A stretch of 64,000 nt of DNA from Multifurca ochricompacta. Lineage: Eukaryota; Basidiomycota; Agaricomycetes; Russulales; Russulaceae. The translations under genes and the position numbers were made by a program. The DNA is taken from positions 1-64,000 of the forward strand of contig WTXG01000047.1 of NCBI GenBank assembly GCA_022496185.1, written 5' to 3'. The notes below the pieces were generated by a model, which worked only from the letters and a program-made list of their open reading frames with translations, made no database searches and had not been told where the DNA came from. How positions within the stretch are numbered: the first letter of the stretch is position 1; the number at the start of each line of letters is the position of its first letter. This document shows positions 10,830-60,491 of this stretch, one piece after another.

Positions 10830-12116
10830 CTAGAAACGACTCGTACCGTCATCATCCTGCACCAGCTCCAGATAATCATCGGCTACATTACTATCGTCCA
10901 TCGTATAGTTCTCTTTGTCCGCATCTTGGGGGCATTGGTGAGTGCGGAGAAACCCGTAAGGGCCACGTTGTCCACATAGGCGGCATAAGTCGTGGACGGG
11001 ACAGTCCAACTCCCGATGTCCTGCATTGTGACGCAGGCACTTGCCACACCATCCAGACGGGTTGCTGATTGTCGGCGCGACTCCTACTCGGCGGAAGATA
11101 CAAAACCTGCTCCAATGCAGGTTGCTGCGACAGTGCCGGCACCACTTGCGATTGAGGGGGCAGTTCCAGCTGATGTGGTACTTACTGTCGCATCTCCAAC
11201 ACGTCTCTCCCCGAGGGTTCTCATGCATGCGCGGCATCTCGAATCGGTTTGGCAGCAGCGTCGGGGCAGCCCCTAGTGATCGCGGTGGGAGGGGTCGGGC
11301 ATAGGTGTCAGCGTACCTCTCCGCGATCGTCTGATATGCATCCCCCTTTTCCAACCTCTTTCGGATCTCTACCAGCTCCTGCTCGATCTGGAACATCCCG
11401 TTGGTCAACCGGGCCATCATCTTGGCATGTTCTTTGTATTGCAGGTTGAGTGTTTTGCGCAGAGTTAGATTCTTCCGCAGCCTCATTACCTCGGCTTTGA
11501 GGCGCGGAAGTCGCATGTCACTCATCACCTCGTCGATGGCAAAGGCCCGGGGATCTTCGGCAGCCAGATGCCCCAGCTGTTCATCAGTCATCGTATGATG
11601 TAGACGACCCGTATACCTTTCCTCCAGATAAACCGGAGCTCCATAAACTGGACCGTCCTTTTTCATGCACCCGGCGACGTCCATTCCTCCGTTGGTGTAA
11701 AAGATGTACTTGGCGATGGCGATGGTTCCGTCGCCCATGGTGATCTCCAGTGGATAGTACGTGGAGGAGTTAGGGTTGTTCAGGAAAAAAGGGAACTCCG
11801 GGACTTCGTCATCCGATTCCATACCCACCAGGTCATTTGGGTGCGGCTCCTCACAGTGTTCGAAGTCATCGTTGGGATTAGGGGATTGGTTCTTGACTCG
11901 AGCTTCGGCGGCCTCGTAGTCAATAGGTGAGGAAGGGCGTGTAGAGGGATGGGCGGAGGGGAAACTCTCGACGACCACGGTAGTGGCGGTGAAGGCGTCG
12001 ACGGCAGCGTTGGCAGCGATGAAAGACATAATGGATTGTATGGTGGTAGGACGTTGCTGGGGGAGCATGTACTGGGGAACTTCAACTGGGGTTTGGGGTC
12101 GCTCCCTTTTAATCAT
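10830..12116 (-). CDS. GypC ORF3: 428-aa zinc-knuckle protein of unknown role
   Basis: The ATG overlaps the pol stop (ATGATTAA), hinting at termination-reinitiation. An N-terminal acidic, Pro/Ser-rich part (1-110) is followed by YYPLEITMGDGTIAIAKYI. A charged helical, possibly coiled-coil stretch (about 200-255) precedes a Cys/His cluster. The cluster holds two perfect CX2CX4HX4C knuckles (residues 306-319 and 326-339), a CX2CX6HX4C (357-372) and a fourth variant (378-395). The tail is acidic. No signal peptide or membrane segment is visible, so it is not envelope-like. I do not recognise the family. GypD carries a decayed homologue. A nucleic-acid-binding accessory role is inference. Confidence 0.85.
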   Translation of the reverse strand: MIKRERPQTPVEVPQYMLPQQRPTTIQSIMSFIAANAAVDAFTATTVVVESFPSAHPSTRPSSPIDYEAAEARVKNQSPNPNDDFEHCEEPHPNDLVGMESDDEVPEFPFFLNNPNSSTYYPLEITMGDGTIAIAKYIFYTNGGMDVAGCMKKDGPVYGAPVYLEERYTGRLHHTMTDEQLGHLAAEDPRAFAIDEVMSDMRLPRLKAEVMRLRKNLTLRKTLNLQYKEHAKMMARLTNGMFQIEQELVEIRKRLEKGDAYQTIAERYADTYARPLPPRSLGAAPTLLPNRFEMPRMHENPRGETCWRCDSKYHISWNCPLNRKWCRHCRSNLHWSRFCIFRRVGVAPTISNPSGWCGKCLRHNAGHRELDCPVHDLCRLCGQRGPYGFLRTHQCPQDADKENYTMDDSNVADDYLELVQDDDGTSRF

Positions 12117-15100
12117 CTTTGGGCGCTTCTGGGTGTCGGGCGTGGAACTCCGAGATAAGGACCGGGGCGAAGATATTCCCGGCTGGCTCCCACGAACTGT
12201 CAGAGTCTGGGAATCCCTTCCACTTGACTAGGTAGTGCATCTTGCGCCCTCGGCCTTTTCTCATTGAGTCTAGAATGCGCTCCACTTCCCACTCCGCTTC
12301 GCCATCGATAAGGTCAGGTGGGGGTCTTGGGAAATTTTCCCCATGAAGGGATGTCTCCTTGTACGGCGTCAGAAGTTTGGCATGGAAGACGGGATGGATC
12401 TTCCATTTGGGTGGCAATCGCAGTTCGTATGACACATCTGACAGCTTCCTTGTGACCTGGAAGGGACCATGGCGTCTAGGCGCTAATTTGGCTGTGGGGT
12501 GTGACGTGTGAATGTTTCTCCCGTCGAGCCAGACCCAGTCATTGGGCTGATAAGGTGTGAACGTGCTTGGCTGCGCAGCTAGGGCCTGCTGTGCTTTTGC
12601 TAGATTTTCATTGGCCGATTGTCGTAAGTCTTCCCACTGATGCATCCGTTGGGTTACCGAAGGAACGTTGATGGGTTTATCCGCCCATGTGGTGCGCGGG
12701 GTCCAGCCCATGATAAGGGAGAAGGGGGTAGCTTTTGTCGTTCCGTTGGGCCATGAGTTGTGTGCAAATTCTGCAGTTGACAGCCACTCTGCCCAGTCGT
12801 TTTGTCGTTCATTACACCAGAACCGAAGATACTGCTCCAACCATTGGTTCGTCCGTTCAGACTGTCCATCTGTCTGTGGATGGTAAGCCGTAGAGATGTT
12901 CTGTGCAATGCCCAGTGTTTTACATAGGGCTCTGGCAAACGTAGATGTAAACCGGGTATCTCTGTCGGATATGATTTTTTTGGGGAGACCATAGTGTCGA
13001 TATACGTGATCCAGGTATAGTCTTGCCACTCCTTCCGCTGTGATCGTTTCATTGCACGGTATGAACAGGGCCGCCTTGGAACAATCATGGTCCGTGATCG
13101 TAAGAATGGTGTCAAAGCCCAGTGACGTGGGTAGTTTAACAATGAAATCCATCGCAATGGTTTGGAAAGGGGTCGACGATATGGGGGTAATGGGATGCAT
13201 TGGCGGGATTTTCGGGTGTGTGTTCACTTTGTTTGCTTGACATGCGGCACATCCTTGCACATAACTTTCAACATCCTTTTTCATGTTGGGCCACCAGTAG
13301 TCGCGTTTGGCGAGGGCATAAGTGTTAGCAATGCCCGGGTGGCCAGCGGAGGGAAGGTCGTGATGAAAATGGATCACCCCCCTCTTAATGTTGTCGCCAC
13401 CGGTGACAACGAGTCGATCTCCATCTTTCCACCATAAGCCGTTGACTTCTTTCAAATTGTGCGCATCGGCCCATGAGCGGCATAATTCCTGGTTCATGTT
13501 CTGTGACACTTGGGCCCATAGGTCCATGTCGTGGAGGCTGACTATGGCGGTCTTCGCGAACACTTCCTCGGGCAGAACAATAACGTCATTATTGTCATCC
13601 TCACCGGTGTGCATGTCCGGCCTTCGTGACAGTGCATCTGCTCTCGCATTTTGACTTCCTGCGATGTGTTTCAGGGTAAAATTGTACTCTTCAAGTTCCA
13701 AAACCTCTCGCGCTACGCGTCGGCTGATTTTGTGGGGCTCCTTCCAATACAGCAAGTTGGAATGGTCAGTGTAGATGATGGTTTGGTGGGGAGTTCCTGC
13801 TAGATAGGGCCTCCAGTGTCGCAAAGCCTTGACAATGGCTAGAAGCTCTCTATCCCAGATGTCATAATTTCGTTCTGCCGGTGAGAAGGTTTCAGAGTAA
13901 TATGCCACTGGGTGAAGTATTTGCGTGGCATCTCTTTGGTACAGCACTGCTCCGTTTGCGAAGTGAGAGGCGTCTACTTCTAGTTCGAAGGGGCGGCTCA
14001 GGTCAGGTTGAATGAGTACTGGCTCTGAGCCGACAATGTTTCTGATTTGCTCAAATGCCTGTTGCTGCGCAGCCTCCCAATGCCATGGTACGTCCTTTTT
14101 CAAGAGATCGTTCAATGGTCGTGCGACGCCGGAAAATCCCTTGACAAAGCGTCGGTAGAAGTTGCAGAATCCAATGAATGATCGGACATCCTTGACACAG
14201 GTCGGTACAGGCCATTCTCGAATGCCTTGCACTTTGATGGGATCCATGCGTACTTGTCCTTCCTCTAGAATGACTCCTAGGTACTCAACACTGCGTTGTT
14301 CGAAAGAGCATTTTGCAGGTTTGAGGTACAGGTCGTGCTCTTGGAGTATATCTAACACTTGATGTACACGGTCTCGGTGGTGATCTAGGTTGTCTGGGGT
14401 GGCCACCAATATGTCGTCCATATAGACTACTACTTCTCCAGTAAGAATGAGGTCGCGGAAGATGTGGTTCATCATGGCTTGAAACGTCGCTGGTGAATTT
14501 GTAAGGCCAAAGAACATGACATTTGGTTCAAACAATCCTTGATTTGTTTTGAACGCCGCTTTGCACTGATCACCTTCCTTGATCCTGACGTTATTGTACC
14601 CCCACCGCACGTCCATTTTCGAGAAGAGGGACTTATCCCTCATGGTGTCTATGAGCTCGGAGATGAGCGGCAGGGGGTAGGCATTTTTCACCGTGTGAGC
14701 GTTAATTCGTCGATAATCCTGGACTGGTCGCAGCTTGCCGTCCTTTTTCTTGATGAAGAAGAAGGGTGAGGCGTACTGTGACTTGGATGGGCGAATGTAC
14801 CCCTTCGCCAAATGTTCTTGGAGGAACTCTGTCAATGCCACCTGCTCGGACTGGGATAGCGGGTAGATTTTGCAGTCGATTGCTGCTGGCGTGTCGGGGA
14901 GCAGGTCTATGGCGTGATCCCAGGGTCGAGAGGGTGGGAATCGCTGCGACTCTTCTTCTGAGAACACCTTCCAATGTCGGTGATAGGTGTGCGGTACTAT
15001 ATCGTTATAAGTCTTCTCTGCTTGCCCTTGTATTGCCTTCTGGGCCAACTCTGAAGCCTTTGTGGCATAACAGTGACCTGGGTCTTCTTTGCCGGTATCT

Positions 15101-15591
15101 GCATCTCTGGTCGCCCCGTGTCTGATTGCATAATCGTAGCCTCTCGACGTAATGATGGTGGGGTATGAATCCTTATCCATTGTTGCATCGGCCCAATTGA
15201 TCCTGGGTTCGAATGCAGCAAGCCATGGGTACCCCAAAATGAGGTCTTCGTCCCCCAAGTCGGTGATCAGAAAGCGGATGACTTTTGTTATTTCCCCGAC
15301 TTGGACATTTAGGTCGGTGTAGTGTGTAATTCTTCCAGCACGGTTAGCAGTTCCGTCAATATTCCAGATGTTTTTCTCTTGGGGAAGAGCCTGCTTCCCT
15401 AGTCCCAAAGTTTTGATCATCCTTGGACTGATAAAGTTGTCCGTGGCTCCAGAGTCCACTAAGATGTCTCGATCGGCCGTCCTCTGTGTAGTCTCGAAAT
15501 GAACTGGTATTTTTAATGATTTGAACCGACTAGTATACACAGAGGTAACATGGAGTGCTCTTGCCCAGGCCGACGGGGTAGAGCTTATCAA
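12109..15591 (-). CDS. GypC Pol: protease, RT, RNase H, integrase, chromodomain
   Basis: This 1160-residue frame has no stop. Protease carries ILVDSGATDNF with Asp46. RT has the [19 protein letters not shown] block and YMDD at 390-393. RNase H shows Asp540, Glu582 and Asp609. The integrase has an HHCC finger (HHDLPSAGH ... CAAC, about 743-784) and the DDE triad Asp815, Asp876, Glu912 with 35 residues between the last two. A chromodomain (EWEVERIL ... YLVKWKGFPDSDSSWEP, about 1100-1150) closes it. It is expressed from gag by -1 frameshift. Its stop overlaps the start of ORF3 by eight bases. Confidence 0.96.
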   Translation of the reverse strand: MISSTPSAWARALHVTSVYTSRFKSLKIPVHFETTQRTADRDILVDSGATDNFISPRMIKTLGLGKQALPQEKNIWNIDGTANRAGRITHYTDLNVQVGEITKVIRFLITDLGDEDLILGYPWLAAFEPRINWADATMDKDSYPTIITSRGYDYAIRHGATRDADTGKEDPGHCYATKASELAQKAIQGQAEKTYNDIVPHTYHRHWKVFSEEESQRFPPSRPWDHAIDLLPDTPAAIDCKIYPLSQSEQVALTEFLQEHLAKGYIRPSKSQYASPFFFIKKKDGKLRPVQDYRRINAHTVKNAYPLPLISELIDTMRDKSLFSKMDVRWGYNNVRIKEGDQCKAAFKTNQGLFEPNVMFFGLTNSPATFQAMMNHIFRDLILTGEVVVYMDDILVATPDNLDHHRDRVHQVLDILQEHDLYLKPAKCSFEQRSVEYLGVILEEGQVRMDPIKVQGIREWPVPTCVKDVRSFIGFCNFYRRFVKGFSGVARPLNDLLKKDVPWHWEAAQQQAFEQIRNIVGSEPVLIQPDLSRPFELEVDASHFANGAVLYQRDATQILHPVAYYSETFSPAERNYDIWDRELLAIVKALRHWRPYLAGTPHQTIIYTDHSNLLYWKEPHKISRRVAREVLELEEYNFTLKHIAGSQNARADALSRRPDMHTGEDDNNDVIVLPEEVFAKTAIVSLHDMDLWAQVSQNMNQELCRSWADAHNLKEVNGLWWKDGDRLVVTGGDNIKRGVIHFHHDLPSAGHPGIANTYALAKRDYWWPNMKKDVESYVQGCAACQANKVNTHPKIPPMHPITPISSTPFQTIAMDFIVKLPTSLGFDTILTITDHDCSKAALFIPCNETITAEGVARLYLDHVYRHYGLPKKIISDRDTRFTSTFARALCKTLGIAQNISTAYHPQTDGQSERTNQWLEQYLRFWCNERQNDWAEWLSTAEFAHNSWPNGTTKATPFSLIMGWTPRTTWADKPINVPSVTQRMHQWEDLRQSANENLAKAQQALAAQPSTFTPYQPNDWVWLDGRNIHTSHPTAKLAPRRHGPFQVTRKLSDVSYELRLPPKWKIHPVFHAKLLTPYKETSLHGENFPRPPPDLIDGEAEWEVERILDSMRKGRGRKMHYLVKWKGFPDSDSSWEPAGNIFAPVLISEFHARHPEAPKDD

Positions 15592-15600
15592 AAATCCTTC
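15586..15600 (-). promoter_or_regulatory. Gag-pol -1 frameshift site
   Basis: The minus strand reads GGATTTTTGATAA. Gag terminates GAT-TTT-TGA and pol continues in -1 as TTT-TTG-ATA. The same GGATTTTTGA lies at the gag/pol border of GypD2 (about 47122). Confidence 0.55.
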
Positions 15601-17105
15601 TTTGCGAATGCCTTCTCCACCAGGAGGGCTCGCACTTCCTCACTCTCCTTCATCATGCCTGCCCATATGTCCTGGGCCTTCTCTTCCTTAGTCCGCTTGT
15701 CTACAGTTGGTGGGTTGTTGTTGACGGGGGCTGTTGGTGTTGCGTTTGCTGCCGCAACCCGTACTCCCTTCTTTGGACAGTCTCGGGACATATGCCCCTG
15801 TCCTTTACAGCGAAAACACCTTCCTTCCTTCATCAGTGTCTGCCGTTCGTCTTCTGTGAGCGTGACTCTTGCCCTGACTCTATCGGCTGAGGTATCCATA
15901 GCATTGGGGTCCCTCTGAGTGGTGTGCGCTGGTTTGACTCCAAACGCGGCCTTCCACTGTTCTCGAGTTTTTCCTTTCTTGGTGTCGACTCCGAATCGTG
16001 TTTGGAAGTCGAGATAGTCCTGCTGCTGTCGTCGAGCAGCATCGACCCATTCGTCCCAGTCATGAGGGTGATGGAACTGAATGATATTTTTAACCAGTGG
16101 GTTCGGCAATCCTTGGGAGAAGAGGTCCAGGGTTGCCTCTTCATCTGTATCATAACCGGCCCTGTTGGCCAAACTTCTGAACTTTGCTACGTAGGCGTCC
16201 AGCTCTCCTTTCTCCATTTTCAGAGTTTTTAACTCTCGGGCTGCCTTCTGCTTGGCCTGCCCGTCCGTGAACGCGTCTTTGAACCTCTGGGCGATAGTTT
16301 CCCAGAGGCCTTCGCTAGTGGTACGACGGCCACTCTCAATTTGTTCGTTCAGCCATTCCAGCTGTTCCATCGTCCAGTCGTCTACTGCCTCTCCTCGAAT
16401 TAATGACAGAAAGAGGTTGGCGCGCTGGAAGGGGTTGATGATTTGGGGAACATCGTGGTTAAAGTTCTTGAAGGTGGTGAACTCTAACATGAACTTTTTA
16501 CTTTGTGATCGGTCCCCTGCGAATGTTTGTGGTAGTACGCCTGATAGACGTCCTGACGGTGGGGGAATGTTCGGGGGCAGCATGGCTGGGGGTGGTGGCG
16601 CGGGGGGAGCTGGGTCTGGGAGCTGGGCGGCAATGGTGGACATTCCTTGGTGAAACGGGGTGACAGTGTCGGTAGATTGTATGGAGATCTGGGGAGTTGT
16701 CAAAGCAGGGGCTCTGGACGTGGCAACTCCGGGTGCAACTGGGGTGGTAGTCGATACTAATACCAGTGCTTCTTCACTATGTTCTTCTACGTACTCTTCT
16801 GGTTCAGAGTCCGTGACGATGGCCGGGGGATTTTCTCTCCACGGTCCTAGTCCAAATTCAGGTGGGGCGGGTCCTGTAGTAACCCAAGAGTGTCGGCTAT
16901 CCGAGTATCGGATACGATACCAAACTCTCTTTTCTTCGTCGTATTCTACCGGTTGGTATCTTCCGTCGTGATAGACGTAGTATCCAAACTCGGACTCAAA
17001 ATCTTTCCAGGTGGCAGAGCCAAGTACTTGCTGTGAAAGATTATGCTCCTCTCGACGTTCGATGAGTTCTTCTTTAAACAAGGTCTGACTGCGGCTGGAA
17101 GCCAC
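15588..17105 (-). CDS. GypC Gag (about 505 aa)
   Basis: This is the structural protein of the virus-like particle. After a region with YYVYHDGRYQPVEYDEEKR and a Pro-rich linker comes the retrotransposon-gag core (LSGVLPQTFAGDRSQSKKFM through VDAARRQQQDYLDFQ). A CCHC zinc knuckle CFRCKGQGHMSRDC lies near residue 430, and the tail ends KAFAKKDF. No ATG exists in this frame at the expected place: the frame opens on GTG at 17105, while the overlapping ATG is out of frame. GypD2 has ATGGCT there, so the start looks damaged by a TG insertion. The stop TGA overlaps the -1 pol frame. Confidence 0.9.
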   Translation of the reverse strand: MASSRSQTLFKEELIERREEHNLSQQVLGSATWKDFESEFGYYVYHDGRYQPVEYDEEKRVWYRIRYSDSRHSWVTTGPAPPEFGLGPWRENPPAIVTDSEPEEYVEEHSEEALVLVSTTTPVAPGVATSRAPALTTPQISIQSTDTVTPFHQGMSTIAAQLPDPAPPAPPPPAMLPPNIPPPSGRLSGVLPQTFAGDRSQSKKFMLEFTTFKNFNHDVPQIINPFQRANLFLSLIRGEAVDDWTMEQLEWLNEQIESGRRTTSEGLWETIAQRFKDAFTDGQAKQKAARELKTLKMEKGELDAYVAKFRSLANRAGYDTDEEATLDLFSQGLPNPLVKNIIQFHHPHDWDEWVDAARRQQQDYLDFQTRFGVDTKKGKTREQWKAAFGVKPAHTTQRDPNAMDTSADRVRARVTLTEDERQTLMKEGRCFRCKGQGHMSRDCPKKGVRVAAANATPTAPVNNNPPTVDKRTKEEKAQDIWAGMMKESEEVRALLVEKAFAKKDF

Positions 17106-17890: not shown

Positions 17891-18386
17891 TGTTGACACG
17901 GCATGTGTCTTGAGGTGCTTCAGGCATCTGGGTTAGGGTCTAAGCTGTGCAAGATTAGATTAGATAAAGATTCGGAGTCTCGGACTTTTTACTATATCAT
18001 TATTACTTTCTTTCTTGCGATGCGCAGCAGCTGACTGATATACCTTAGTAATCCTGTGTAGCATGTGATATCTCACTGGCCAATGGCCTTAGTCCCTCAG
18101 TAGTACATTCTAGCGTATTCCATTGCGCACAGACCATCCCTTGAGGTGTATATAAGGGTGTCTGTTTCGTCTCTTACACTTCAGAGTTTTCTTCTCCTCT
18201 GAAGTGTAAGTCCTTCCTACTCTACTTACTACTTTACCTTTGACTAACCATCTCTTGTAGATAACTTGTCCTTTTAGGTGTGTAGTATAGTATAATAGAG
18301 TTTTCTTCTCCTCTGAAGTATAACTTGTCCTTTTAGCCTTATACACTAACCACAGTCAGTATCACTGCACACATGCCTGTTTATCA
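17891..18386 (+). repeat. Cop1 5' LTR (496 bp)
   Basis: It contains TATATAAG at 18149-18156 and the intron-bearing and intronless leader units. It differs from the 3' LTR at about seven positions by eye. Confidence 0.95.
18173..18336 (+). promoter_or_regulatory. Cop1 5' LTR leader: hairpin, intron-bearing unit, then intronless unit
   Basis: The hairpin CTTACACTTCAGAG / CTCTGAAGTGTAAG (18173-18210) has a perfect 14-bp stem and contains the 5' splice site. Unit 1 is exon 18183-18205, intron 18206-18260 (GTAAGT, GACTAAC, TTGTAG; 55 nt) and exon 18261-18277. After a 19-nt spacer, unit 2 (18297-18336) repeats both exon parts joined exactly, without the intron. Confidence 0.85.
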
Positions 18387-18398
18387 GGTTATGGGCCC
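18387..18398 (+). promoter_or_regulatory. Cop1 primer-binding site (half initiator tRNA type)
   Basis: GGTTATGGGCCC directly follows the LTR. Its complement GGGCCCATAACC resembles the anticodon arm of initiator methionine tRNA (anticodon CAU), as known for Drosophila copia, which uses a 5' half tRNA. The same 12-mer follows the LTRs of Cop2 and Cop4. Confidence 0.7.
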
Positions 18399-18490
18399 TG
18401 ATGCTCATTACTGATCTGGCACTCTTTTGATCACAGTCCAACAACTTTTCAAGCTCAACAAGCAGTAAAGTTTCTTCCCAACAACTTTCC

Positions 18491-20893: not shown

Positions 20894-21396
20894 TGTGAAA
20901 CAGGCATGAGGCGCAGCATACTGACTGTAAGGTTAGCAGGTTATGCTAGACAAAGACAAGTAACTTCAGAGATAGAAGAAACTCTATTATACTATACTAC
21001 TGACCTAGACGAAGACAAGTACTACACAGAGCATTAGTCTCAAGGTATGATAGTAAGTAAGAGAAGGGACTTACACTTCAGAGATAGAAGAAACTCTGAA
21101 GTGTAAGAGACGAAACAGACACCCTTATATACTATCTAAGGGATGGTCTGTGCACTGGGAATAAGTCCACAAGTGCCGGACAAAGTCCAAACAATAAACA
21201 AGAGAGATAAAGGCCATTGGCCAATACAGAAATCACATGTTACATGGTGCATCAGTCAGCTACTGCGGAATGTGAGAAAGAAGGTAATAATGATAATGTA
21301 AAAAGTCCGAAACTCCGGTATCTAATCTAATCTGCAAAGTAGCTAATCTAATCACCTGATGCCTGAAGCATCACCGAACATCTTCTGTGTTCAACA
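20894..21396 (-). mobile_element. Copia solo LTR 1 (503 bp) in Cop1 pol
   Basis: Plus-strand ends are TGTGAAACAGG and GTGTTCAACA, with target duplication TCCCT (20889-20893, 21397-21401). Cop2 shows the uninterrupted site. It belongs to the TGTTGAACACAG subfamily, as does the solo LTR at 49810. Leader units lie at 20946-21097: the intron is 21022-21074 and the intronless copy 20946-20985. Confidence 0.93.
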
Positions 21397-22455: not shown

Positions 22456-22965
22456 TGTCAAACAATCATGCTGCTGGTTATACTGACTGTGGTTAGTAGC
22501 AGGTTAGGCTAGAAAGACAAGTATACTTCAGAGGTTGAAGAAACTCTGTATTAACTATACTACTGACCTAGAAAGACAAGTATCTACAAGAGACGTTAGT
22601 CAAAGGAAAAGTAGAAAGTATAGTTTGACTTACACTTCAGAGGTTGAAGAAACTCTGAAGTGGAAGAGACGAAACAGACACCCTTATATACCCATAGGGG
22701 CCAGGGGAAATGGTCTGTGTGCACTGGGAATAAGTCCACAAGTGCCAGACAATAAACAGAGAGGGATAAAGGCCATTGGCCAAAGAGATATCACATGCTT
22801 ACTGCGCATTACTAAGTCCATCACTAATCAGCTGAGTAAGGTGAGAAAGAAATGTAATAAAGATAACATAAAAAGTCTGATACTCCGGAATCTAATCTAA
22901 TCTATTCTACAGCTGAAGCGAACCTTAGATGCCTGAAGCATCTCCAGACACGTCTTGTGTCAACA
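22456..22965 (-). mobile_element. Copia solo LTR 2 (510 bp) in Cop1 pol
   Basis: Plus-strand ends are TGTCAAACAATC and CTTGTGTCAACA, with duplication AAGTC (22451-22455, 22966-22970). Leader units: intronless copy 22509-22547, intron 22584-22633, first exon 22634-22656. Confidence 0.93.
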
Positions 22966-22970
22966 AAGTC

Positions 22971-24687
22971 CACGCTCTGAACGACAGTCAGTGGCTATAC
23001 AAGAAGATTTAGATCTTGATATTGTTATGCCAAAACATTCATGTCGTCTGAATCCTCGCTTTTATAATGAGGATAATGCAGAGTTTGTGCAAGGTTCATC
23101 CAGACTTGGGACCATGGAGTTGCTAAATGCCGCTGGTGTCTCTTACAGAGACCCCCTGACTTTTCAGGAGGCAATGCAGTCTGATAATGCCACTGAGTGG
23201 CTTGAAGCATGTCAATATGAAATAGATGCTTTGAAAAAGTTAAATGTGTGGCGCCTTGAGAATCTTCCTGAAGGAAGAAAGGCAGTCAAATCGAAATGGG
23301 TCTTTAAGCTGAAACCAGATGGACGGTTTCGTGCTAGGCTTGTGGCAAAAGGTTTCACTCAAATAGAAGGAGTGGACTTTGATGAAACATTCTCCCCAGT
23401 TGCCAGATTTGAATCACTTTGTTTATTGCTAGCGTTAGCTGCGCTAGAAGATTGGGAAATCCACCAGATGGATGTCAAATCAGCATTCCTTCATGGCGAT
23501 CTGGATGAGGAGATTTATATGGAGCAACCTGTTGGTTTCATCATTGCTGGACAAGAGTCCAAAGTTTGTAGGCTACAAAAAGCATTATATGGCCTCAAAC
23601 AAGCCTCCTGAGCATGGAATCTTCAATTTCATGCAGTCCTTATAGAACTGGGCTTTACTCGGACGTACTCTGATGCAGGAGTATATGTGTATCATCACCA
23701 TGGGGGGGATGATTCACTTTTTGTCATTCTTTATGTTGATGACATCACTATACTTGGATCTTCAAAAGATAAGATAACATGGCTGAAGGAATCTCTATCT
23801 AGCCGATATGAGATGACTGACTTGGGAGAAATCCAGTCATATCTCGGTGTTAACATCACCAGAGATCGTCCTAACAAGATGCTGGAAATTGATCAGACAG
23901 CTTATGTTTCATCTATTCTTGAGAAGTTTGGGATGAGGGATTCCAATCCAGTATACACTCCCCTACCAGCCGGTGCAGATGCACATCTGGTCAAGTTTGA
24001 AGGCCAAGCATCTACTTCAGAAATAAAGAAGTATCAACAGCTAATGGGGTCACTACTATGGGTGCAGATTGGAAGCAGACCTGACAATAGCTTTGCTGTT
24101 GCACGCCTTAGTCAATATGCATCCAATCCTTCACAACATCATCTGCGCCTAGCAAAGTATGTTCTAAAGTACCTAAATGCTACTATGAACTACAGGGTGC
24201 ATATTCTGGAGGGAATGAAGAGAGTGGCCTTCATGGCTTTGCAGATTCCTCATGGGGAGATCAAGAGGACTGTCACTCTACTTCAGGCTACGTCCACATG
24301 CTTGCAAATGGAGCCATATCCTGGTGCTCCAGAAAACAAAAGACTGTAGCACAGTCCACCACAGAAGCTGAATACATGAGCCTAGCTGAGGCTTCCAATC
24401 AGGCTGTGTGGTATAGGACATTTATGGAGGAATTGGGATATGAAGTCACTTCACCCATACAACTCCATTGTGACAATAAGGGTGCTGTAGACTTGGCATT
24501 AAACCCTGTCACAGGAAGGCAGTCAAAACACATTCCAATAAAGTACCATGTAATCAGGGAGCATGTTGAATCGCATCTAATCAATTTAGTGCGAACTCCC
24601 ACTGGTGAAATGCTGGCAGATGGCTTCACAAAGTCTCTACCAAGAACGTCACATGAAAACATGGTTACTAGACTTGGACTTATATGA
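22971..24687 (+). pseudogene. Cop1 reverse transcriptase and RNase H, broken
   Basis: The RT blocks are KSKWVFKLKPDGRFRARLVAKGF, FSPVARFESL, MDVKSAFLHGDLDEEIYMEQP and ILYVDDITILGSS (catalytic YVDD near 23730). A TGA at 23609-23611 replaces the CGA codon seen in Cop2. Near 24200 one base is lost (gtgcat for gtgcgat), shifting the frame before RNase H. RNase H resumes at 24298-24687 with SRKQKTVAQSTTEAEYMSL and TPTGEMLADGFTKSLP. Confidence 0.9.
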
Positions 24688-24894: not shown

Positions 24895-25390
24895 TGTTGA
24901 CACGGCATGTGTCTTGAGGTGCTTCAGGCATCTGGGTTAGGGTCTAAGCTGTGCAAGATTAGATTAGATAAAGATTCGGAGTCTTGGACTTTTTACTATA
25001 TCATTATTACTTTCTTTCTCGCGATGCACAGCAGCTGACTGATATACCTTAGTAATCCTGTGTAGCATGTGATATCTCACTGGCCAATGGCCTTAGTCCC
25101 TCAGTAGTACATTCTAGCGTATTCCATTGCGCACAGACCATCCCTTGAGGTGTATATAAGGGTGTCTGTTTCGTCTCTTACACTTCAGAGTTTTCTTCTC
25201 CTCTGAAGTGTAAGTCCTTCCTACTCTACTTACTACTTTACCTTTGACTAACCGTCTCTTGTAGATAACTTGTCCTTTTAGGTGTGTAGTATAGTATAAT
25301 AGAGTTTTCTTCTCCTCTGAAGTATAACTTGTCCTTTTAGCCTTATATGCTAACCACAGTCAGTATCACTGTGCACATGCCTGTTTATCA
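24895..25390 (+). repeat. Cop1 3' LTR (496 bp)
   Basis: It is preceded by polypurine tract atGGAGGGA (24886-24894). The leader unit duplication is preserved at 25187-25340, with the intron at 25210-25264. Confidence 0.95.
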
Positions 25391-49809: not shown

Positions 49810-50315
49810 TGTTGAACACAGAAGATGTTCGGTGATGCTTCAGGCATCAGGTGATTAGATTAGCTACTTTGTAGATTAGATAAGATACCGGAGTCTCGGA
49901 CTTTTTACATTATCATTATTACTTTCCTTCTCACATTCCGCAGTAGCTGACTGATGCACCATGTAGCATGTGATTTCTGTAGTAGCCAATGGCCTTATGC
50001 CCTCATGTTTATTGTTTGGACTTTGTCCGGCACCTGTGGACTTATTCCCAGCGTGCACAGACCATCCCTTGGAAGTATATAAGGGTGTCTGTTTCATCCT
50101 CTACACTTCAGAGTTCTCTTCTACCTCTGAAGTGTAAGTCCTCTTCATTTACTTACTATTATACCTTGAGACTAACGCTCTTAGTAGTAACTTGTCTTTG
50201 TCTAGGTCAGTAGTATAGTAATAGAGTTCTCTTCTACCTCTGAAGTTAACTTGTCTTTGTCTAGCCTAAACCGCTAACCTTTCAGTCAGTATGCTGCGCA
50301 CATGCCTGTTTCACA
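49810..50315 (+). mobile_element. Copia solo LTR 6 (506 bp)
   Basis: Ends are TGTTGAACACAG and GCCTGTTTCACA, with AGGGA on both sides (49805-49809, 50316-50320). Leader units: exon 50110-50133, intron 50134-50187 (GTAAGT, GACTAAC, TAGTAG), exon 50188-50205, intronless copy 50223-50264. Confidence 0.94.
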
Positions 50316-52791: not shown

Positions 52792-53286
52792 TGATGAACA
52801 GGCATGTGTGCGCAGTGATACTGACTGTGGTTAGCATGTAAAGCTAGAAACAAGTTATACTTCAGAGGAGAAGAAAACTCTAATATTACTATACTACACA
52901 CCTAGAAACAAGTTATCTACAAGAGACGGTTAGTTATAGGTAAGGTAGTAAGTAGAAAGACTGTGACTTACACTTCAGAGGAGAAGAAAACTCTGAAGTG
53001 TAAGAGACGAAACAGACACCCTTATATACTACTCAAGGGATGGTCTGTGCACAATGGAATGCGCTAGAATGTACTACTGAGGGATAAAGGCCATTGGCCA
53101 GTGAGATATCACATGCTATACAGGATTACTAAGGTACATCAGTCAGCTGCTGCGCATCGCGAGAAAGAAAGTAATAATGATATGCTAAAAAGTCCGAGAC
53201 TCTGAATCTTTATCTAATCTAATCTTGCACAGCTTAGACCCTAACCCAGATGCCTGAAGCACCTCAAGACACATACCGTGTCAACA
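52792..53286 (-). repeat. Cop2 3' LTR with leader units
   Basis: Intronless unit 52844-52881; exon 52902-52916, intron 52917-52971 (55 nt, minus strand), exon 52972-52994. Both exon copies carry ggagaagaaaa. Confidence 0.9.
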
Positions 53287-53491: not shown

Positions 53492-55189
53492 TCATACAAG
53501 TCCAAGTCCAGTAACCATGTGTTCATGTGATGCTCTTGGTAGAGACTTTGTGAAGCCATCTGCCAGCATTTCACCAGTGGGAGTTCGCACTAAATTGATT
53601 AGATGTGATTCAACATACTCCCTGATAGCATGGTACTTTATTGGTATATGTTTTGACCGCCTTCCTGTGACAGGGTTTAATGCCAAGTCTATGGCACCCT
53701 TATTGTCACAATGGAGTTGAATGGGTGAAGTAACTTCATATCCCAATTCCTCCATAAACGTCCTATACCATGCAGCCTGATTGGAAGCCTCAGCTAGGCT
53801 CATGTATTCAGCTTCTGTGGTGGACTGTGCTACAGTCTTTTGCTTTCTAGAGCACCAGGATATGGCTCCATTTGCAAGCATATAGACGTAGCCTGAAGTG
53901 GAGTGGCAGTCCTCTTGATCTCCCCATGAGGAATCTGCAAAGCCATGAAGGTCACTCTCTTCATTCCCTCCAGAATATCGCACCCTGTAGTTCATAGTAG
54001 CATTAAGGTACTTTAGAACATACTTTGCTAGGCGCAGATGATGTTGTGAAGGATTGGAAGCATATTGACTAAGGCGTGCAACAGCAAAGCTAATGTCGGG
54101 TCTGCTTCCAATCTGTACCCATAGCAGTGACCCCATTAGTTGTTGGTACTTCTTTATTTCTGAAGTAGATGCCTGGCCATCAAACTTGACCAGATGTGCA
54201 TCCGCGCCAGCTGGTAGGGGAGTATATACTGGATTGGAATCCCTCATCCCAAACTTATCAAGAATAGACGAAATATAAGCTGCCTGATCAATTTCCAGCG
54301 TCTTGTTAGGACGATCTCTGGTGATGTTAACACCGAGATATGACTGGATTTCTCCCAAGTCAGTCATCTCATATCGGCTAGATAGAGATTCCTTCAGCCA
54401 TGTTATCTTATCTTTTGAAGATCCAAGTATAGTGATGTCATCAACATAAAGAATGATGAAAAGTGAATCATCCCCCCCATGGTGATGATACACATATACT
54501 CCTGCATCAGAGTACGTCTGAGTAAAGCCCAGTTCAGTAAGAACTGCATGAAATTGAAGATTCCATGCTCGGGAGGCTTGTTTGAGGCTGTATAATGCTT
54601 TTTGTAGCCTACAAACTTTGGACTCTTGTCCAGCAATGATGAAACCAACAGGTTGCTCCATATAAATCTCCTCATCCAGATCGCCATGAAGGAATGCTGA
54701 TTTGACATCCATCTGGTGGATTTCCCAATTTTCTAGCACAGCTAACGCTAGTAATAAACGAAGTGATTCAAATCTGGTGACTGGGGAGAATGTTTCATCA
54801 AAGTCCACTCCTTCTACTTGAGTGAAACCTTTTGCCACGAGCCTGGCACGAAACCGTCCATCTGGTTTCAATTTAAAAACCCATTTTGATTTGACAGCCT
54901 TCCTTCCTTTAGGAAGATCCTCAAGGCGCCACACATTTAACTTTTGTAGGGCATTTATTTCATATTGGCATGCCTCAAGCCATTCTTCAGCATTATCAGA
55001 CTGCATTGCCTCCTGAAAGGTCAGGGGGTCTCTATAAGAGACACCAGCGGCATTTAGCAGCTCCATGGTCCCAAGCCTGGATGAACCTTGCACAAACTCT
55101 GCATTATCCTCATTGTAGAAGCGAGGATTCAGATGACGTGAACGTTTTGGCATAACAATATCAAGATCTAAATCTTCTTGTATAGCCAT
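53492..55189 (-). CDS. Cop2 reverse transcriptase and RNase H, open frame
   Basis: 565 codons run without a stop. RT has KSKWVFKLKPDGRFRARLV, MDVKSAFLHGDLDEEIYMEQ and ILYVDDITILGSS with the YVDD active site. RNase H has GFADSSWGDQEDCHSTSG, AQSTTEAEYMSLAEAS and TPTGEMLADGFTKSLP. The natural protein would be the C-terminal part of a gag-pol polyprotein, so the internal ATG is not a true start. It serves as the reference that reveals the lesions in Cop1. Confidence 0.93.
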   Translation of the reverse strand: MAIQEDLDLDIVMPKRSRHLNPRFYNEDNAEFVQGSSRLGTMELLNAAGVSYRDPLTFQEAMQSDNAEEWLEACQYEINALQKLNVWRLEDLPKGRKAVKSKWVFKLKPDGRFRARLVAKGFTQVEGVDFDETFSPVTRFESLRLLLALAVLENWEIHQMDVKSAFLHGDLDEEIYMEQPVGFIIAGQESKVCRLQKALYSLKQASRAWNLQFHAVLTELGFTQTYSDAGVYVYHHHGGDDSLFIILYVDDITILGSSKDKITWLKESLSSRYEMTDLGEIQSYLGVNITRDRPNKTLEIDQAAYISSILDKFGMRDSNPVYTPLPAGADAHLVKFDGQASTSEIKKYQQLMGSLLWVQIGSRPDISFAVARLSQYASNPSQHHLRLAKYVLKYLNATMNYRVRYSGGNEESDLHGFADSSWGDQEDCHSTSGYVYMLANGAISWCSRKQKTVAQSTTEAEYMSLAEASNQAAWYRTFMEELGYEVTSPIQLHCDNKGAIDLALNPVTGRRSKHIPIKYHAIREYVESHLINLVRTPTGEMLADGFTKSLPRASHEHMVTGLGLV

Positions 55190-55282
55190 GGATCGTCATT
55201 CAGAGCGTGGACTTTCCCTAGTAAAAACTGGTTGGGAAAGTTTGCCTCTAGCCTTTTTTGTTGACTTTCTAACAGCACGAGT

Positions 55283-56847
55283 TCAGGTGGGGAGTTGAGA
55301 GGGTTCCATTATTTGGGATGGTGGTGTCTGATATATGGTGTCTGTGTGTGTGTCTACTTCATTGTCGGGTGTGGTAGGCTCAGGATTTATTTGAGGAGGC
55401 TCCACTACCTCCTGTTCCTCAACCTTGGTATCCTTATACTCAGGATCCTGAGGAACTGTGGCTATTGCTGGTGAGGGTTGGACAGACCCTCCTTCAACTG
55501 GAACAGCTTGTTCCTTTCTTTTATCTCTGTTGTCCATTACAGAGTGGGATGGGAAGGACTCTTCATTAAATGTCACATCTCTGGACAAAACAAAGGACCG
55601 GGTATGTCTATCCCAAAGAGTGTAGCCTTTACTATTTGGCTCATACCCAACAAAGACAGCTTTTTTGGCTTTAGGATCCAATTTTTGCCGCTTGTTTTCC
55701 GGAACATGATAATATGCTTCACAGCTGAAGACTTTAAAATAAGAGACATCTGGTATGTCCCCAACCAGAAGCTCTAGCGGTGTCCTCCACTTATTAGAAC
55801 AGATGGGAGTTCTGTTATATATATGACATGCTGTAGAGACAGCACACTCCCAAAAACCAAGAGAAAGCCCAGCATGATGAAGCATGCTAGTGGCTTTTTC
55901 CATTATAGTTCTGTTGAACCTTTCAGCTCTTCCATTCTGTTGTGGGGAATATGGCATTGTGAGTTTATGCTCTATGCCAGCCTCACTTAGCAAGGACTTC
56001 AGCTCATTATTAACGTATTCGCCACCATGGTCTGTGTGTAAGGTCTTTATTTTCTTATTTGTTTTATTTTCTAAGAATGCCTTAACACTTGCAAAGACTG
56101 ATTTGAAGTAATGTTTTGCCTTCATTGGAACAACTATAGCACTACGGCTAAAGTCATCTATGAAAGTGGCGAAGTATAGATTCCCTTGTATTGAGGTACA
56201 TTGGAGTGGACTGACTAGATCACTATGAATGACCTCCAAGGGTGCTGAAGCTTGCTTATGAGAGGGAGGGAAAGGAAGGCGATGGGATTTTCCCATTTCG
56301 CAGCCATGACAAGGCTTTACTTCCTCCTGGCTATTTTTTAAACTGAGACCTTTTACGGCCTCAGGAGCATATCTTTTTAGGGCTTGTTTAGACATATGAC
56401 CCATTCTCAGATGCCAGGTATCAAGGCTGGTTGATGCAGTATTTAGGGCAGCAGTTGATTTATCCACTATTGTCCCTTGGATCCAGTATAGATCCCCAGC
56501 CTTGATTCCTTCCACTATTCTTTGTCCTTTATACTCTATTGCACATTGTATTGATCAAATAAGACCATACCACCTCTATTGGTGATATGACTTGTTGATA
56601 AGATGCGATTTCCTGCAGATGGCATGTAGAAGATGTTATTAAGTTCCAATATATAATTTTTATTGGTTCTTATATGAACGCTTCCTACTCCTTCTATTGG
56701 GACCATGGTTCCATCCGCCACTGTAACTGTATGTCCCGAATGAGGCAGATATTCATAGAAATCTGACTCAAAGGGTGTGAAGTGGGTGGTGGCACCACTA
56801 TCCATCATCCAGGCAAATCCATCATCTTTGAAGACTTCAGGTCGCAT
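55283..56847 (-). pseudogene. Cop2 protease and integrase
   Basis: Protease (MMDSGATTHFTPF) lies at 56536-56847, then a short frame break. The 410-aa integrase frame (55283-56515) is uninterrupted: WHLRMGHMSKQAL, CHGCEMGKSH, FIDDFSR, LHTDHGGEY and QQNGRAERFNRTIM keep all catalytic residues. It ends at the same linker frame break as Cop1. Confidence 0.9.
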
Positions 56848-57837
56848 TTATGGTATAAAGTTTAATGTGAGGTGTCTCATGCACCTCCTGTATTCTTCCA
56901 CTACCATTAACTATTGTAGCTACTTGGTGGGAAGATGATGGTGTACTGGCGCCTTGCGCCTTCCTCTGGTTGCCCTTTTTACCAGCAGCGGCATTCTGCC
57001 GATCCTGTTTCCTCTGCCGACATTCATTTGCCTTGTGGCCCGGCTTCTGACAGTAGAAGCAGGTGACATCATTGGACGATGATGCACCTGCAGGTTGTGG
57101 CGTGATAAATTGTACCTTTTTATTTTTATTTTTGTTGACGTGGGCTGCCTTGTTAAGGGCAGCCCCAACACCACTTCCTGCGGGGCCGGCAAGTCGGCTT
57201 TCCTCATTTAGGAACCTCTGAATGAGGTCCTGAGGGGAAAGGTGTTCAGGAGGACCTGAAGCCAGGATTGAGCCAGCAATGGCACTGTATGATGGGGGAA
57301 GGGATTGGAGCAAAATAAAGCTCATCTGGAGGTCAGAGACCTCCATCCCATTCTCCTTTAGGGTATTCCTAGCATCTAGCACACGCTGCAATTGGGGCCT
57401 AAATGGTTTGCCTTCCTCTAAATGGAAGGACGAGACCGAGCACCACAAATTGTAGGTGGCCATGCTACCCACAGTGCCATATAAGGATTCCAGCTGCTCA
57501 TACTTTGAGCAGACTGACGGATACTTCCTATCAGAGGCAACTTGAGAATAAACTTCACTGGTGACAACCAGCACCAGTAAACCCATCAGTACTTCTTCGA
57601 CCCTACTCCACTCCTGGATGATGGGTTCTGACCAACTGGCAAATCTTGCCTGGTAGTCTGCTTCCTTCTCATCATCCTTCTGGACCGGGGGTTGGCATAT
57701 TCAGGCCCATCATGTGTGATGTGCCTTCTCATGCCATTAATCCTGAGCAGGGCGGTAAAAGATACCGACCACTGTGGCCAGTTGGAGCCGTCGAGTTTGT
57801 CGAATTTGAAGGTCAAAGGGAAGACAATGTTAGCCAT
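56837..57837 (-). pseudogene. Cop2 gag (frameshifted)
   Basis: MANIVFPLTFKFDKLDGSNW starts at 57837; the frame shifts after HDGPEYANP near 57690. The core continues at 57586 to the knuckle CFYCQKPGHKANEC and ends near protease, with another frame change at about 56840. Confidence 0.88.
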
Positions 57838-57968: not shown

Positions 57969-58470
57969 TGATGAACAGGCATGTGCACGCAGTGATACTG
58001 ACTGTTTGTGGTTAGCTTGTAAGGCTAAAGGGACAAGTTATACTTCAGAGGTGAAGGAAACTCTATTATACTATACTACACACCTAAAGGGACAAGTTAT
58101 CTACAAGAGACGGTTAGTCAAAGGTAAGGTAGTAAGTAAAGTAAGAATGACTTACACTTCAGAGGTGAAGGAAACTCTGAAGTGTAGAAGATGAAACAGA
58201 CACCCTTATATACACTTGAAGGGATGGTCTGTGCGCAATGGAATGTGCTAGAATATACTACTGAGGGACTAAGGCCATTGGCCAGTGAGATATCACATGC
58301 TACACAGGATTACTAAGGTACATCAGTCAGCTGCTGCGCATTGTGAGAAAGAAAGTAATAATGATATAGTAAAAAGTCCGAAACTCCGAATCTTTATCTA
58401 ATCTAATCTTGCACAGCTTAGACCCTAACCCAGATGCCTGAAGCACCTCAAGACACATGCCGTGTCAACA
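57969..58470 (-). repeat. Cop2 5' LTR with leader units
   Basis: Intronless unit 58024-58063; exon 58084-58100, intron 58101-58155 (55 nt), exon 58156-58178. Both exon copies carry ggtgaaggaaa, unlike the other Cop2 LTR. Confidence 0.9.
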
Positions 58471-60101: not shown

Positions 60102-60491
60102 TGAGGTTAGATAATCCAAACTACCTAGAATGGTAGTTATAATTCAGTTGTGATGGTCAGAACTATATATTAATTAGTCTTTACCTAGAATGGTAGTTAT
60201 AACTAGTGTGTGTTAGCTACATAGGTAAAGATAAGATAACAGAATACTCACTTCAGTTGTGATGGTCAGAACTGAAGTGAACTGTACAGTGAGAGTGTCC
60301 TTAAATACTGTAAATGAGTGTGCTTATAGTAACCAAGACAATAAAGGATTGTGTCTAATCAAGTAAGGTATCAAAGTATTCACAGGAAGGTGAAACACAG
60401 TCTGCATGCTACTGCACAACACACAACTTGCTTGTTAGTACCACACACTTAGCGATTGATCTGACCTGGCCATATTGATCCATTTCCGACA
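60102..60491 (-). repeat. Cop3 3' LTR (390 bp) with leader units
   Basis: On the minus strand it starts TGTCGGAAATGG after a CACAGGGGGA purine tract and ends CTAACCTCA. Intronless unit 60125-60164; exon 60185-60202, intron 60203-60251 (49 nt, GTGAGT ... GCTAACACACACTAG), exon 60252-60273. The hairpin uses TTCACTTCAGTT / AACTGAAGTGAG. Confidence 0.85.

Follow-up and report, generated by a model that had tools for sequence, protein, structure and literature searches.

Introns are not expected to outlast reverse transcription, and strand transfer in LTR elements depends on RNA ends that match; an intron inside the terminal redundancy (R) should therefore be lost or block the transfer. Ty1/Copia elements generally carry a single R that contains no intron. 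In retroviruses such as HTLV-1 a 5' splice site lies inside R, a feature shared by the elements described here, and we know of no retrovirus with a splice donor in R that has a complete intron in its LTR or a spliced duplicate of that region. According to a foamy virus study, 13 nt upstream of R, present only in the RNA of the 3' LTR, alter the fold around the splice donor (Schrom et al. 2013, PMC3694450). Our elements resemble that system in having a 5' splice site in R and a structure that would differ between the 5' and 3' RNA copies; they differ in that the viral structure governs the choice of poly(A) site, and the source passages describe neither a tandem intronless R nor its rewriting (PMC3694450). 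Penelope-like elements are retroelements said to keep introns through transposition, but they have a GIY-YIG endonuclease and another replication model, and the source passages mention no spliced tandem copy (PMC3846280). No GIY-YIG domain was found among the Pfam matches of the Copia proteins that we scanned, which have an rve integrase and RVT_2 instead. Within the open-access literature searched, by title and abstract, no LTR element with the tandem reported below is described, and to that extent the first-pass annotation was right to state that no known LTR class has a spliced and an unspliced leader side by side.

The elements come from a 64,000-nt stretch of Multifurca ochricompacta DNA (the window) and from the rest of the assembly. 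A protein encoded near the first positions of the window matches one of that Russulaceae mushroom at 99% identity over 86% of the query, in keeping with this species or a close relative as host. They are Ty1/Copia elements: the integrase precedes an RVT_2-type reverse transcriptase (RT), the gag is of the copia type (Gag, integrase and RVT_2 thus standing in Copia order), the LTRs run TG..CA, and the target duplication is short, at 5 bp. In the minus-strand element at 52.9-58.2 kb the Pfam order is PF14223, PF00098, PF13976, PF00665, PF25597, PF07727. The polymerase is the Copia-type RVT_2 and not a retroviral-type enzyme, which places the elements outside the spumaviruses. The presumed 5' LTR is followed by GGTTATGGG in 16/16 elements, a putative primer site that resembles one of the half-tRNA-iMet kind. 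What distinguishes these elements from other Ty1/Copia members is that each LTR has R in two forms, an intron-bearing unit 1 (exon A, intron 1, exon B) and, after a linker (L), an intronless unit 2 (AB). The novel part is this LTR design and the way in which the intron is kept; by the features tested, the primer aside, the element is otherwise a Copia retrotransposon. The features of Cop1, which is flanked by the 5-bp target duplication AAGCA and whose LTRs are 98.4% identical over 496 bp, and those of the other tandems in the window are as follows.

17891..18386, plus strand: Cop1 5' LTR, TGTTGAC..TTATCA, from direct reading and its flanks
18149..18155, plus strand: TATA box of the Cop1 5' LTR, 34 nt upstream of unit 1
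18173..18186, plus strand: 5' arm of a potential hairpin, CTTACACTTC in U3 plus AGAG, the start of unit 1; pairs with 18197-18210
18183..18205, plus strand: unit 1 exon A; first base is the putative transcription start
18197..18210, plus strand: 3' arm of the hairpin, spanning the 5' splice site
18206..18260, plus strand: intron 1, GTAAGT..GACTAAC..TTGTAG
18261..18277, plus strand: unit 1 exon B, ending in TAG, then GT
18278..18296, plus strand: linker L, A+T-rich, beginning with GTGTGT, the putative 5' splice site of intron 2
18297..18336, plus strand: unit 2, intronless AB, equal to spliced unit 1; putative landing site of first-strand transfer
18387..18400, plus strand: presumed primer-binding site, GGTTATGGGCCCTG
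24895..25390, plus strand: Cop1 3' LTR
25187..25340, plus strand: tandem of the Cop1 3' LTR (A 25187-25209, intron 25210-25264, B 25265-25281, L 25282-25300, AB 25301-25340)
20946..21097, minus strand: tandem in an LTR nested in Cop1 (A 21075-21097, intron 21022-21074, B 21005-21021, L 20986-21004, AB 20946-20985)
22509..22656, minus strand: tandem in a second nested LTR (A 22634-22656, intron 22584-22633, B 22568-22583, L 22548-22567, AB 22509-22547)
50110..50264, plus strand: tandem (A 50110-50133, intron 50134-50187, B 50188-50205, L 50206-50222, AB 50223-50264)
52844..52994, minus strand: tandem in the presumed 3' LTR of the minus-strand Copia element (A 52972-52994, intron 52917-52971, B 52902-52916, L 52882-52901, AB 52844-52881)
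53492..57700, minus strand: coding region of the 52.9-58.2 kb element, with Retrotran_gag_2 and zinc knuckle, GAG-pre-integrase, integrase core and RVT_2 (Pfam)
58025..58178, minus strand: tandem in the presumed 5' LTR of the same element (A 58156-58178, intron 58101-58155, B 58084-58100, L 58065-58083, AB 58025-58064)
60125..60273, minus strand: lineage-2 tandem (A 60252-60273, intron, with GTGAGT, 60203-60251, B 60185-60202, L 60165-60184, AB 60125-60164)

To characterize the tandems we used a motif-free detector, which scans both strands of the window for an interrupted copy followed by an uninterrupted one, GT..AG borders not being required. It returned exactly eight pairs with a GT..AG gap and no tandem pair in one shuffled copy of the window, which rules out a chance origin; the remaining matches above the cut (~6579/6649 and ~34597/34667) are tandem repeats without GT..AG. 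All eight tandems listed by the first-pass annotation were confirmed, at the coordinates it gave except for one, in which unit 2 begins at 58025 and not at 58024. It had further called the intronless copy exact, which is true of seven of the eight, the tandem at 20946-21097 having one mismatch in B, and it had found the missing segment to be a GT..AG intron in every case, which is borne out in 8/8 tandems here and, in the genome, in 106 of 107 sampled LTRs and in 13/13 of a set sampled without motifs. Its intron size of 49-55 nt proved too narrow, since the 107 LTRs span 48-57 nt with one intron of 70 nt. As for other contents of the window, positions 6550-6680 hold tandem repeats with a 30-nt step within a long minus-strand frame (5898-7733), two other Copia LTRs (20900-21390 and 22480-22975) are inserted in reverse into the pol region of Cop1, and the RT frame of Cop1 has an in-frame stop at 23609-23611.

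To determine how widespread the arrangement is, the assembly (53.8 Mb, 605 contigs) was searched. A word spanning the exon and 5' splice site of the Cop1-type LTRs (lineage 1) has 1,460 exact copies, against 0 for the reversed control, and the hairpin of a second lineage together with GTGAGTATT has 327, against 0 for its control. The two lineages are 70% identical over the RT stretch compared (142 aa), have quite different exons, and differ in the position of the LTR, which is closer to the RT in lineage 2. A sample blind to LTR sequence was made from a list of Copia elements ranked by RT domain only: 80 of the first 84 were kept (two window copies, one element at a contig edge and one more were dropped), and a stretch of the expected 3' LTR was read from each, no LTR motif being required. 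The A-intron-B-linker-AB order was seen in 57 of the 80 3' flanks at first reading. Rereading 14 of the 23 misses at other distances gave the tandem in 10 (L132, L135 and eight of lineage 2), a single intronless unit in one (L130/L131) and neither in three (L134, L136, L208); the tandem is thus present in at least 67/80 flanks, nine of the 23 misses having been read once only. This genome-wide search, which the first-pass annotation had asked for, also upholds its view that the tandem occurs in several divergent families, in that two Copia lineages have it.

Two further samples were chosen by motif. Thirty lineage-1 loci were picked by CTCTGAAGTGTAAGT, so that this motif is built into them, and for lineage 2 the hairpin plus GTGAGTATT was used, giving the tandem in 14 of 20 loci (the six misses are mostly interrupted or decayed copies) and, with the window copy at 60125, 15 LTRs. 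As 14 of these 15 have hairpin and GTGAGTATT built in, we fetched 18 lineage-2 3' flanks by RT position alone; 13 of the 18 contain the tandem (one place, L209, had already been sampled as L149), with GT..AG borders in all 13. Among the 107 tandems found by the detector, 106 have exact GT..AG borders, the sole exception being L082, whose unit 2 has a single T-to-C change where A ends. A single recent burst as the source of the pattern is ruled out by 46 distinct unit-1 strings among 94 lineage-1 rows, a count that includes private mutations and one mis-set junction (L082), and by the second lineage with its different exons. Viral contigs searched with the LTR word and the RT stretch yielded no relatives; protein relatives are many among the matches listed.

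The relationship between the two units within an LTR was examined over 32 nt of spliced unit 1 and unit 2. The two are identical in 85/92 lineage-1 LTRs (87/94 rows, two places having been sampled twice), in 11/15 motif-picked lineage-2 LTRs and in 13/13 motif-blind ones, the latter with 7 distinct exon strings. Between LTRs the exons differ by ~9% (A) and ~19% (B) when gaps are allowed (400 random pairs among 52 RVT-anchored LTRs); the ungapped difference of 10.2 in 32 is inflated by indels. Substitutions and small indels are common to both units of an LTR, as with GAAGC in L076 and an extra A in L075. Presumed 5' LTRs were also fetched for 20 hand-picked elements of the 57, and 16 have the tandem in them. 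Comparison of unit 1 with unit 2 in these 16, for which both LTRs were read, gave 0/1,024 differing sites, while the 5' and 3' LTRs differ from each other at 54/4,319 sites, or 18/3,797 without two elements whose LTRs do not match. In those two (L187 and L046 on C601, L189 and L048 on C100) the exon variant of the presumed 5' LTR is not that of the presumed 3' LTR, and each LTR is self-consistent, a pattern that suggests ectopic recombination or mis-assembly.

The contrast between 0/1,024 and 54/4,319 indicates that unit 2 was copied from intron-removed unit 1 at about the time when the LTR pair arose. We see no simple route to this identity other than reverse transcription of spliced RNA, so that unit 2 has very probably been rewritten from spliced unit 1 in each round, and given the concerted evolution of the units, real splicing is much more probable than coincidence. 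The first-pass annotation had noted neither this covariation of the exons nor a way in which the tandem is maintained. The rates of change do not support diversifying selection on the exons, as A changes at about the rate of U3 and U5 (0.09 versus 0.08-0.09) and B at about that of the intron (0.19 versus 0.22). There is no clear hybrid LTR with a unit 2 from another family; five LTRs (L055, L027, L157, L159, L160) have a unit 2 nearer another sampled variant, by only 1-2 changes, and are accounted for by point mutation. Across 87 LTRs, U3 and U5 are coupled (r = 0.79) and the units less so (0.26 with U3, 0.27 with U5); the decoupling of U3 from U5 that intermolecular transfer should produce is not seen, nor any sign of transfer between subfamilies. 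We take the coupling as subfamily structure, which is of no help to the cycle proposed below.

The signals around the units were then compared. Unit 1 begins 34 nt after the TATA box in 87/92 lineage-1 LTRs and 34-35 nt after it in 14/15 of lineage 2; about 34 nt from the TATA box is normal spacing for a transcription start. Intron 1 begins with GTAAGT in 93/94 lineage-1 rows, of which 30 were picked by that motif, and in 56/57 RVT-anchored ones; in lineage 2 it begins with GTGAGT (13/13 motif-blind). It has CTAAC/T near its 3' end in 101/107 LTRs and ends in TAG or CAG, so that by its sequence intron 1 has the borders, branch site and fungal length of a spliceosomal intron. The end of B was set as the first [TC]AG before GT, GC or TAC within 30 nt, and its AG is thus partly built in; with that rule, B in unit 1 ends in AG followed by GT in 106/107 LTRs (GTCAGT 70, GTGTGT 18, GTAAAG 11, GTAAAC 3, others 4), and the same AG in unit 2 runs into U5. 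These positions give the segment L+AB the borders of an intron, the removal of which would leave A-B-U5, the order that stands after L in the DNA.

This candidate intron 2 has GT..AG borders and a fungal length of 55-63 nt (103 measured). Its canonical branch motif YTNAY is not enriched, occurring in 43/103 as against 68/103 in shuffled sequence; a near-match, CTGAA, is present in 92/92 lineage-1 units but is also part of the hairpin, and the main 5' splice site, GTCAGT, is non-canonical. Removal of intron 2 is the weakest step of the cycle, and we would put it only a little above even odds. The linker is 71% A+T in 90 LTRs and 81% in 13, against 59% for the Cop1 LTR as a whole, and this richness might aid the choice of a poly(A) site near unit 2.

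What the DNA itself shows is the LTR structure, the potential hairpin, the by-products and the units evolving in concert; from these we infer a start site, two splicing steps, a poly(A) site, masking and transfer. We propose that R is split, unit 1 serving as the start of the transcript and unit 2 as the landing site near its 3' end, and give the cycle as a whole a probability of about 0.68. Transcription would start at A, 34 nt past the TATA box. The 5' leader would lose intron 1 together with L+AB (intron 2: B|GT...TAG|U5) to become A-B-U5, and the 3' end of the RNA would read U3-A-intron-B-L-A(B), polyadenylated in or after unit 2. In this 3' copy CACTTC of U3 would pair with GAAGTG across the 5' splice site and hide it, so that intron 1 stays; CACTTC lies upstream of the start and would hence be absent from the 5' end of the RNA. 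First-strand cDNA of A-B-U5 would then land on the intronless unit 2 and be extended through L, B, the intron, A and U3, rebuilding the whole LTR with a unit 2 rewritten from spliced unit 1. The intron would survive reverse transcription because the cDNA lands on unit 2 and only then copies the intron-bearing unit 1. That these LTRs form a class in which the redundancy is closed by a spliced R at the 5' end and an intronless R reserved for the 3' end, with a hairpin dependent on the start site picking the copy to be spliced, we consider reasonably likely.

The hairpin derives from an inverted repeat that sets in ~10 nt upstream of the start, includes AGAG (or AGTT) and reaches the 5' splice site. 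Its upstream arm, CACTTC, is present in 92/92 lineage-1 LTRs, for which the arm was not asked for, and in 13/13 motif-blind lineage-2 LTRs, while the 21 nt preceding it are 35% common between the lineages. In Cop1 the predicted fold is -20.2 with 25 nt of U3 and -9.1 if the RNA starts at unit 1. For lineage 1 the mean predicted unpaired probability of the 5' splice site is 0.45 without U3 and 0.20 with 25 nt of U3 (lower in 89/92); with the upstream part shuffled it is 0.375, and the true U3 gives a lower value in 86/92. The corresponding values for motif-picked lineage-2 LTRs fall from 0.39 to 0.13 with U3 (lower in 13/15), against 0.27 for the shuffled upstream part (true U3 lower in 13/15), and in motif-blind ones U3 lowers the predicted accessibility in 11/13. 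Two pairs on the loop side, both sides of which lie inside A, changed together between the lineages (GC to TA and AT to TA); the stem pairs that cross the start site are nearly invariant and have no covariation. Being part of U3, the upstream arm would be confined to the 3' RNA copy, and the predictions are consistent with a foamy-virus-like masking in which U3 makes the 5' splice site of that copy less accessible. That this masking is what keeps intron 1 in the 3' copy seems to us slightly more probable than the opposite.

LTR classes other than the tandem are informative about the transfer. Each lineage has 34 pattern matches to intronless A-B outside the tandem, with many exon variants. Those read, at 33 distinct places (21/34 in lineage 1, 12/34 in lineage 2), have B running directly into U5 in 30; in the other three (L137, L143 and L144) the sequence breaks off inside B or shortly past it. 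Such a single intronless unit is the product expected if A-B-U5 cDNA lands on unit 1 and not on unit 2. At least two elements of normal length (C246 and C595) have it in both LTRs, those of C595 being identical over 296 bp, which indicates that the single-unit state passes through replication. On C46, C446 and C604 matching single-unit LTR pairs lie 13-20 kb apart, and in each pair one LTR alone is followed by the primer site; each pair would belong to one element if insertions separate its LTRs. One LTR (L069, C37:45081-45123) has a triple, A-i-B-L-A-i-B-L-AB, with two intron-bearing units and one intronless, as expected of an unspliced leader landing on unit 2. The class A-B-L(-AB) was not found: in lineage 1 there were 0, against 992 B-L and 796 AB-U5 places, with a pattern that would catch 55/92 sampled units, and in lineage 2 there were 0 for the B type of 7/15 LTRs. 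Its absence is expected if the 3' copy stays unspliced. A-intron-B running straight into U5 gave 0 for the one B type searched, that of 14/92 lineage-1 LTRs. Recombination between the direct repeats could also yield the single units and the triple, but not the missing A-B-L class.

Several other readings were weighed against the split-R cycle. Intron 1 might be spliced while L+AB is no intron at all, the leader being A-B-L-AB-U5 and RT jumping between the two copies of B, out of unit 2 and into unit 1, during strong-stop synthesis, so that the resulting A-B-U5 cDNA lands on unit 2. Direct repeats of ~40 nt favour such jumps, and most copies of intron 2 do have no canonical branch site; yet failed jumps should leave A-B-L-AB or AB-L-AB, of which there were 0 for the B types searched against 992 B-L, and the AG followed by GT at the end of B (106/107) goes unexplained, so that we regard this route as unlikely. 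The tandem could instead date from a one-off event, an ancestral spliced cDNA joined after L and passively copied ever since, its units kept identical by DNA gene conversion or by recency. An old origin fits an arrangement common to both lineages, but recency fails on exons that differ between LTRs while the units within an LTR hardly do. Conversion should at times erase the intron of unit 1, yet no A-B-L turned up for the B types searched; we disfavour gene conversion as what keeps the units alike for that reason, and the one-off event appears quite improbable.

A further account has an ordinary LTR with unit 2 as the normal R and unit 1 as a promoter-proximal element, both kept alike by selection, for instance on a protein or small-RNA site. 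Unit 2 alone would be enough as R, but unit 1 is the one that stands at TATA+34, the gap is exactly GT..AG with a branch site, and the loop and B vary between LTRs yet match in both units, indels included, which together leave this account with very little probability. A last alternative concerns the masking step alone: the hairpin may act in RNA dimerisation or as a promoter or initiator, intron 1 being retained at the 3' end through distance or timing. We hold this to be less probable than not. The start-crossing pairs without covariation speak for it, and against it stand CACTTC, kept in both lineages where its surroundings are not, and the lower predicted accessibility in 102/107 LTRs; the foamy virus report also gives a direct precedent for masking (PMC3694450).

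The element appears to solve both of the problems that an intron in R poses, by means of a second R that has no intron and is renewed from spliced RNA every round. If the cycle is true, an LTR intron goes through reverse transcription any number of times, and the way in which a parent was spliced is recorded in the genome by every new copy. Confirmation would show how an LTR element can keep an intron, would provide a natural DNA record of splicing in ~1,800 pattern-matched copies in one genome, and would suggest that fungal Copia elements, too, evolved the masking of a splice site by U3 that is reported in foamy virus.

Some smaller observations were made along the way. The U5 of Cop1 (18337-18386) has a CTAACC..CAGTCAGT-like motif that is kept in those lineage-1 LTRs that were read by eye and resembles more splice signals. 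Elsewhere in the window a Gypsy element occupies 12109-15639 on the minus strand, its pol frame long and open and its domains including a chromodomain (PF00385), and a tRNA-Ser (AGA) gene at 2329-2403 on the plus strand is the only Rfam match at the gathering threshold in the window. The 70-nt intron belongs to a lineage-2 LTR, L153 (C10:114240-114579), and is ~21 nt longer near its 3' end than that of its nearest kin; the segment absent from its unit 2 is still exactly GT..AG.
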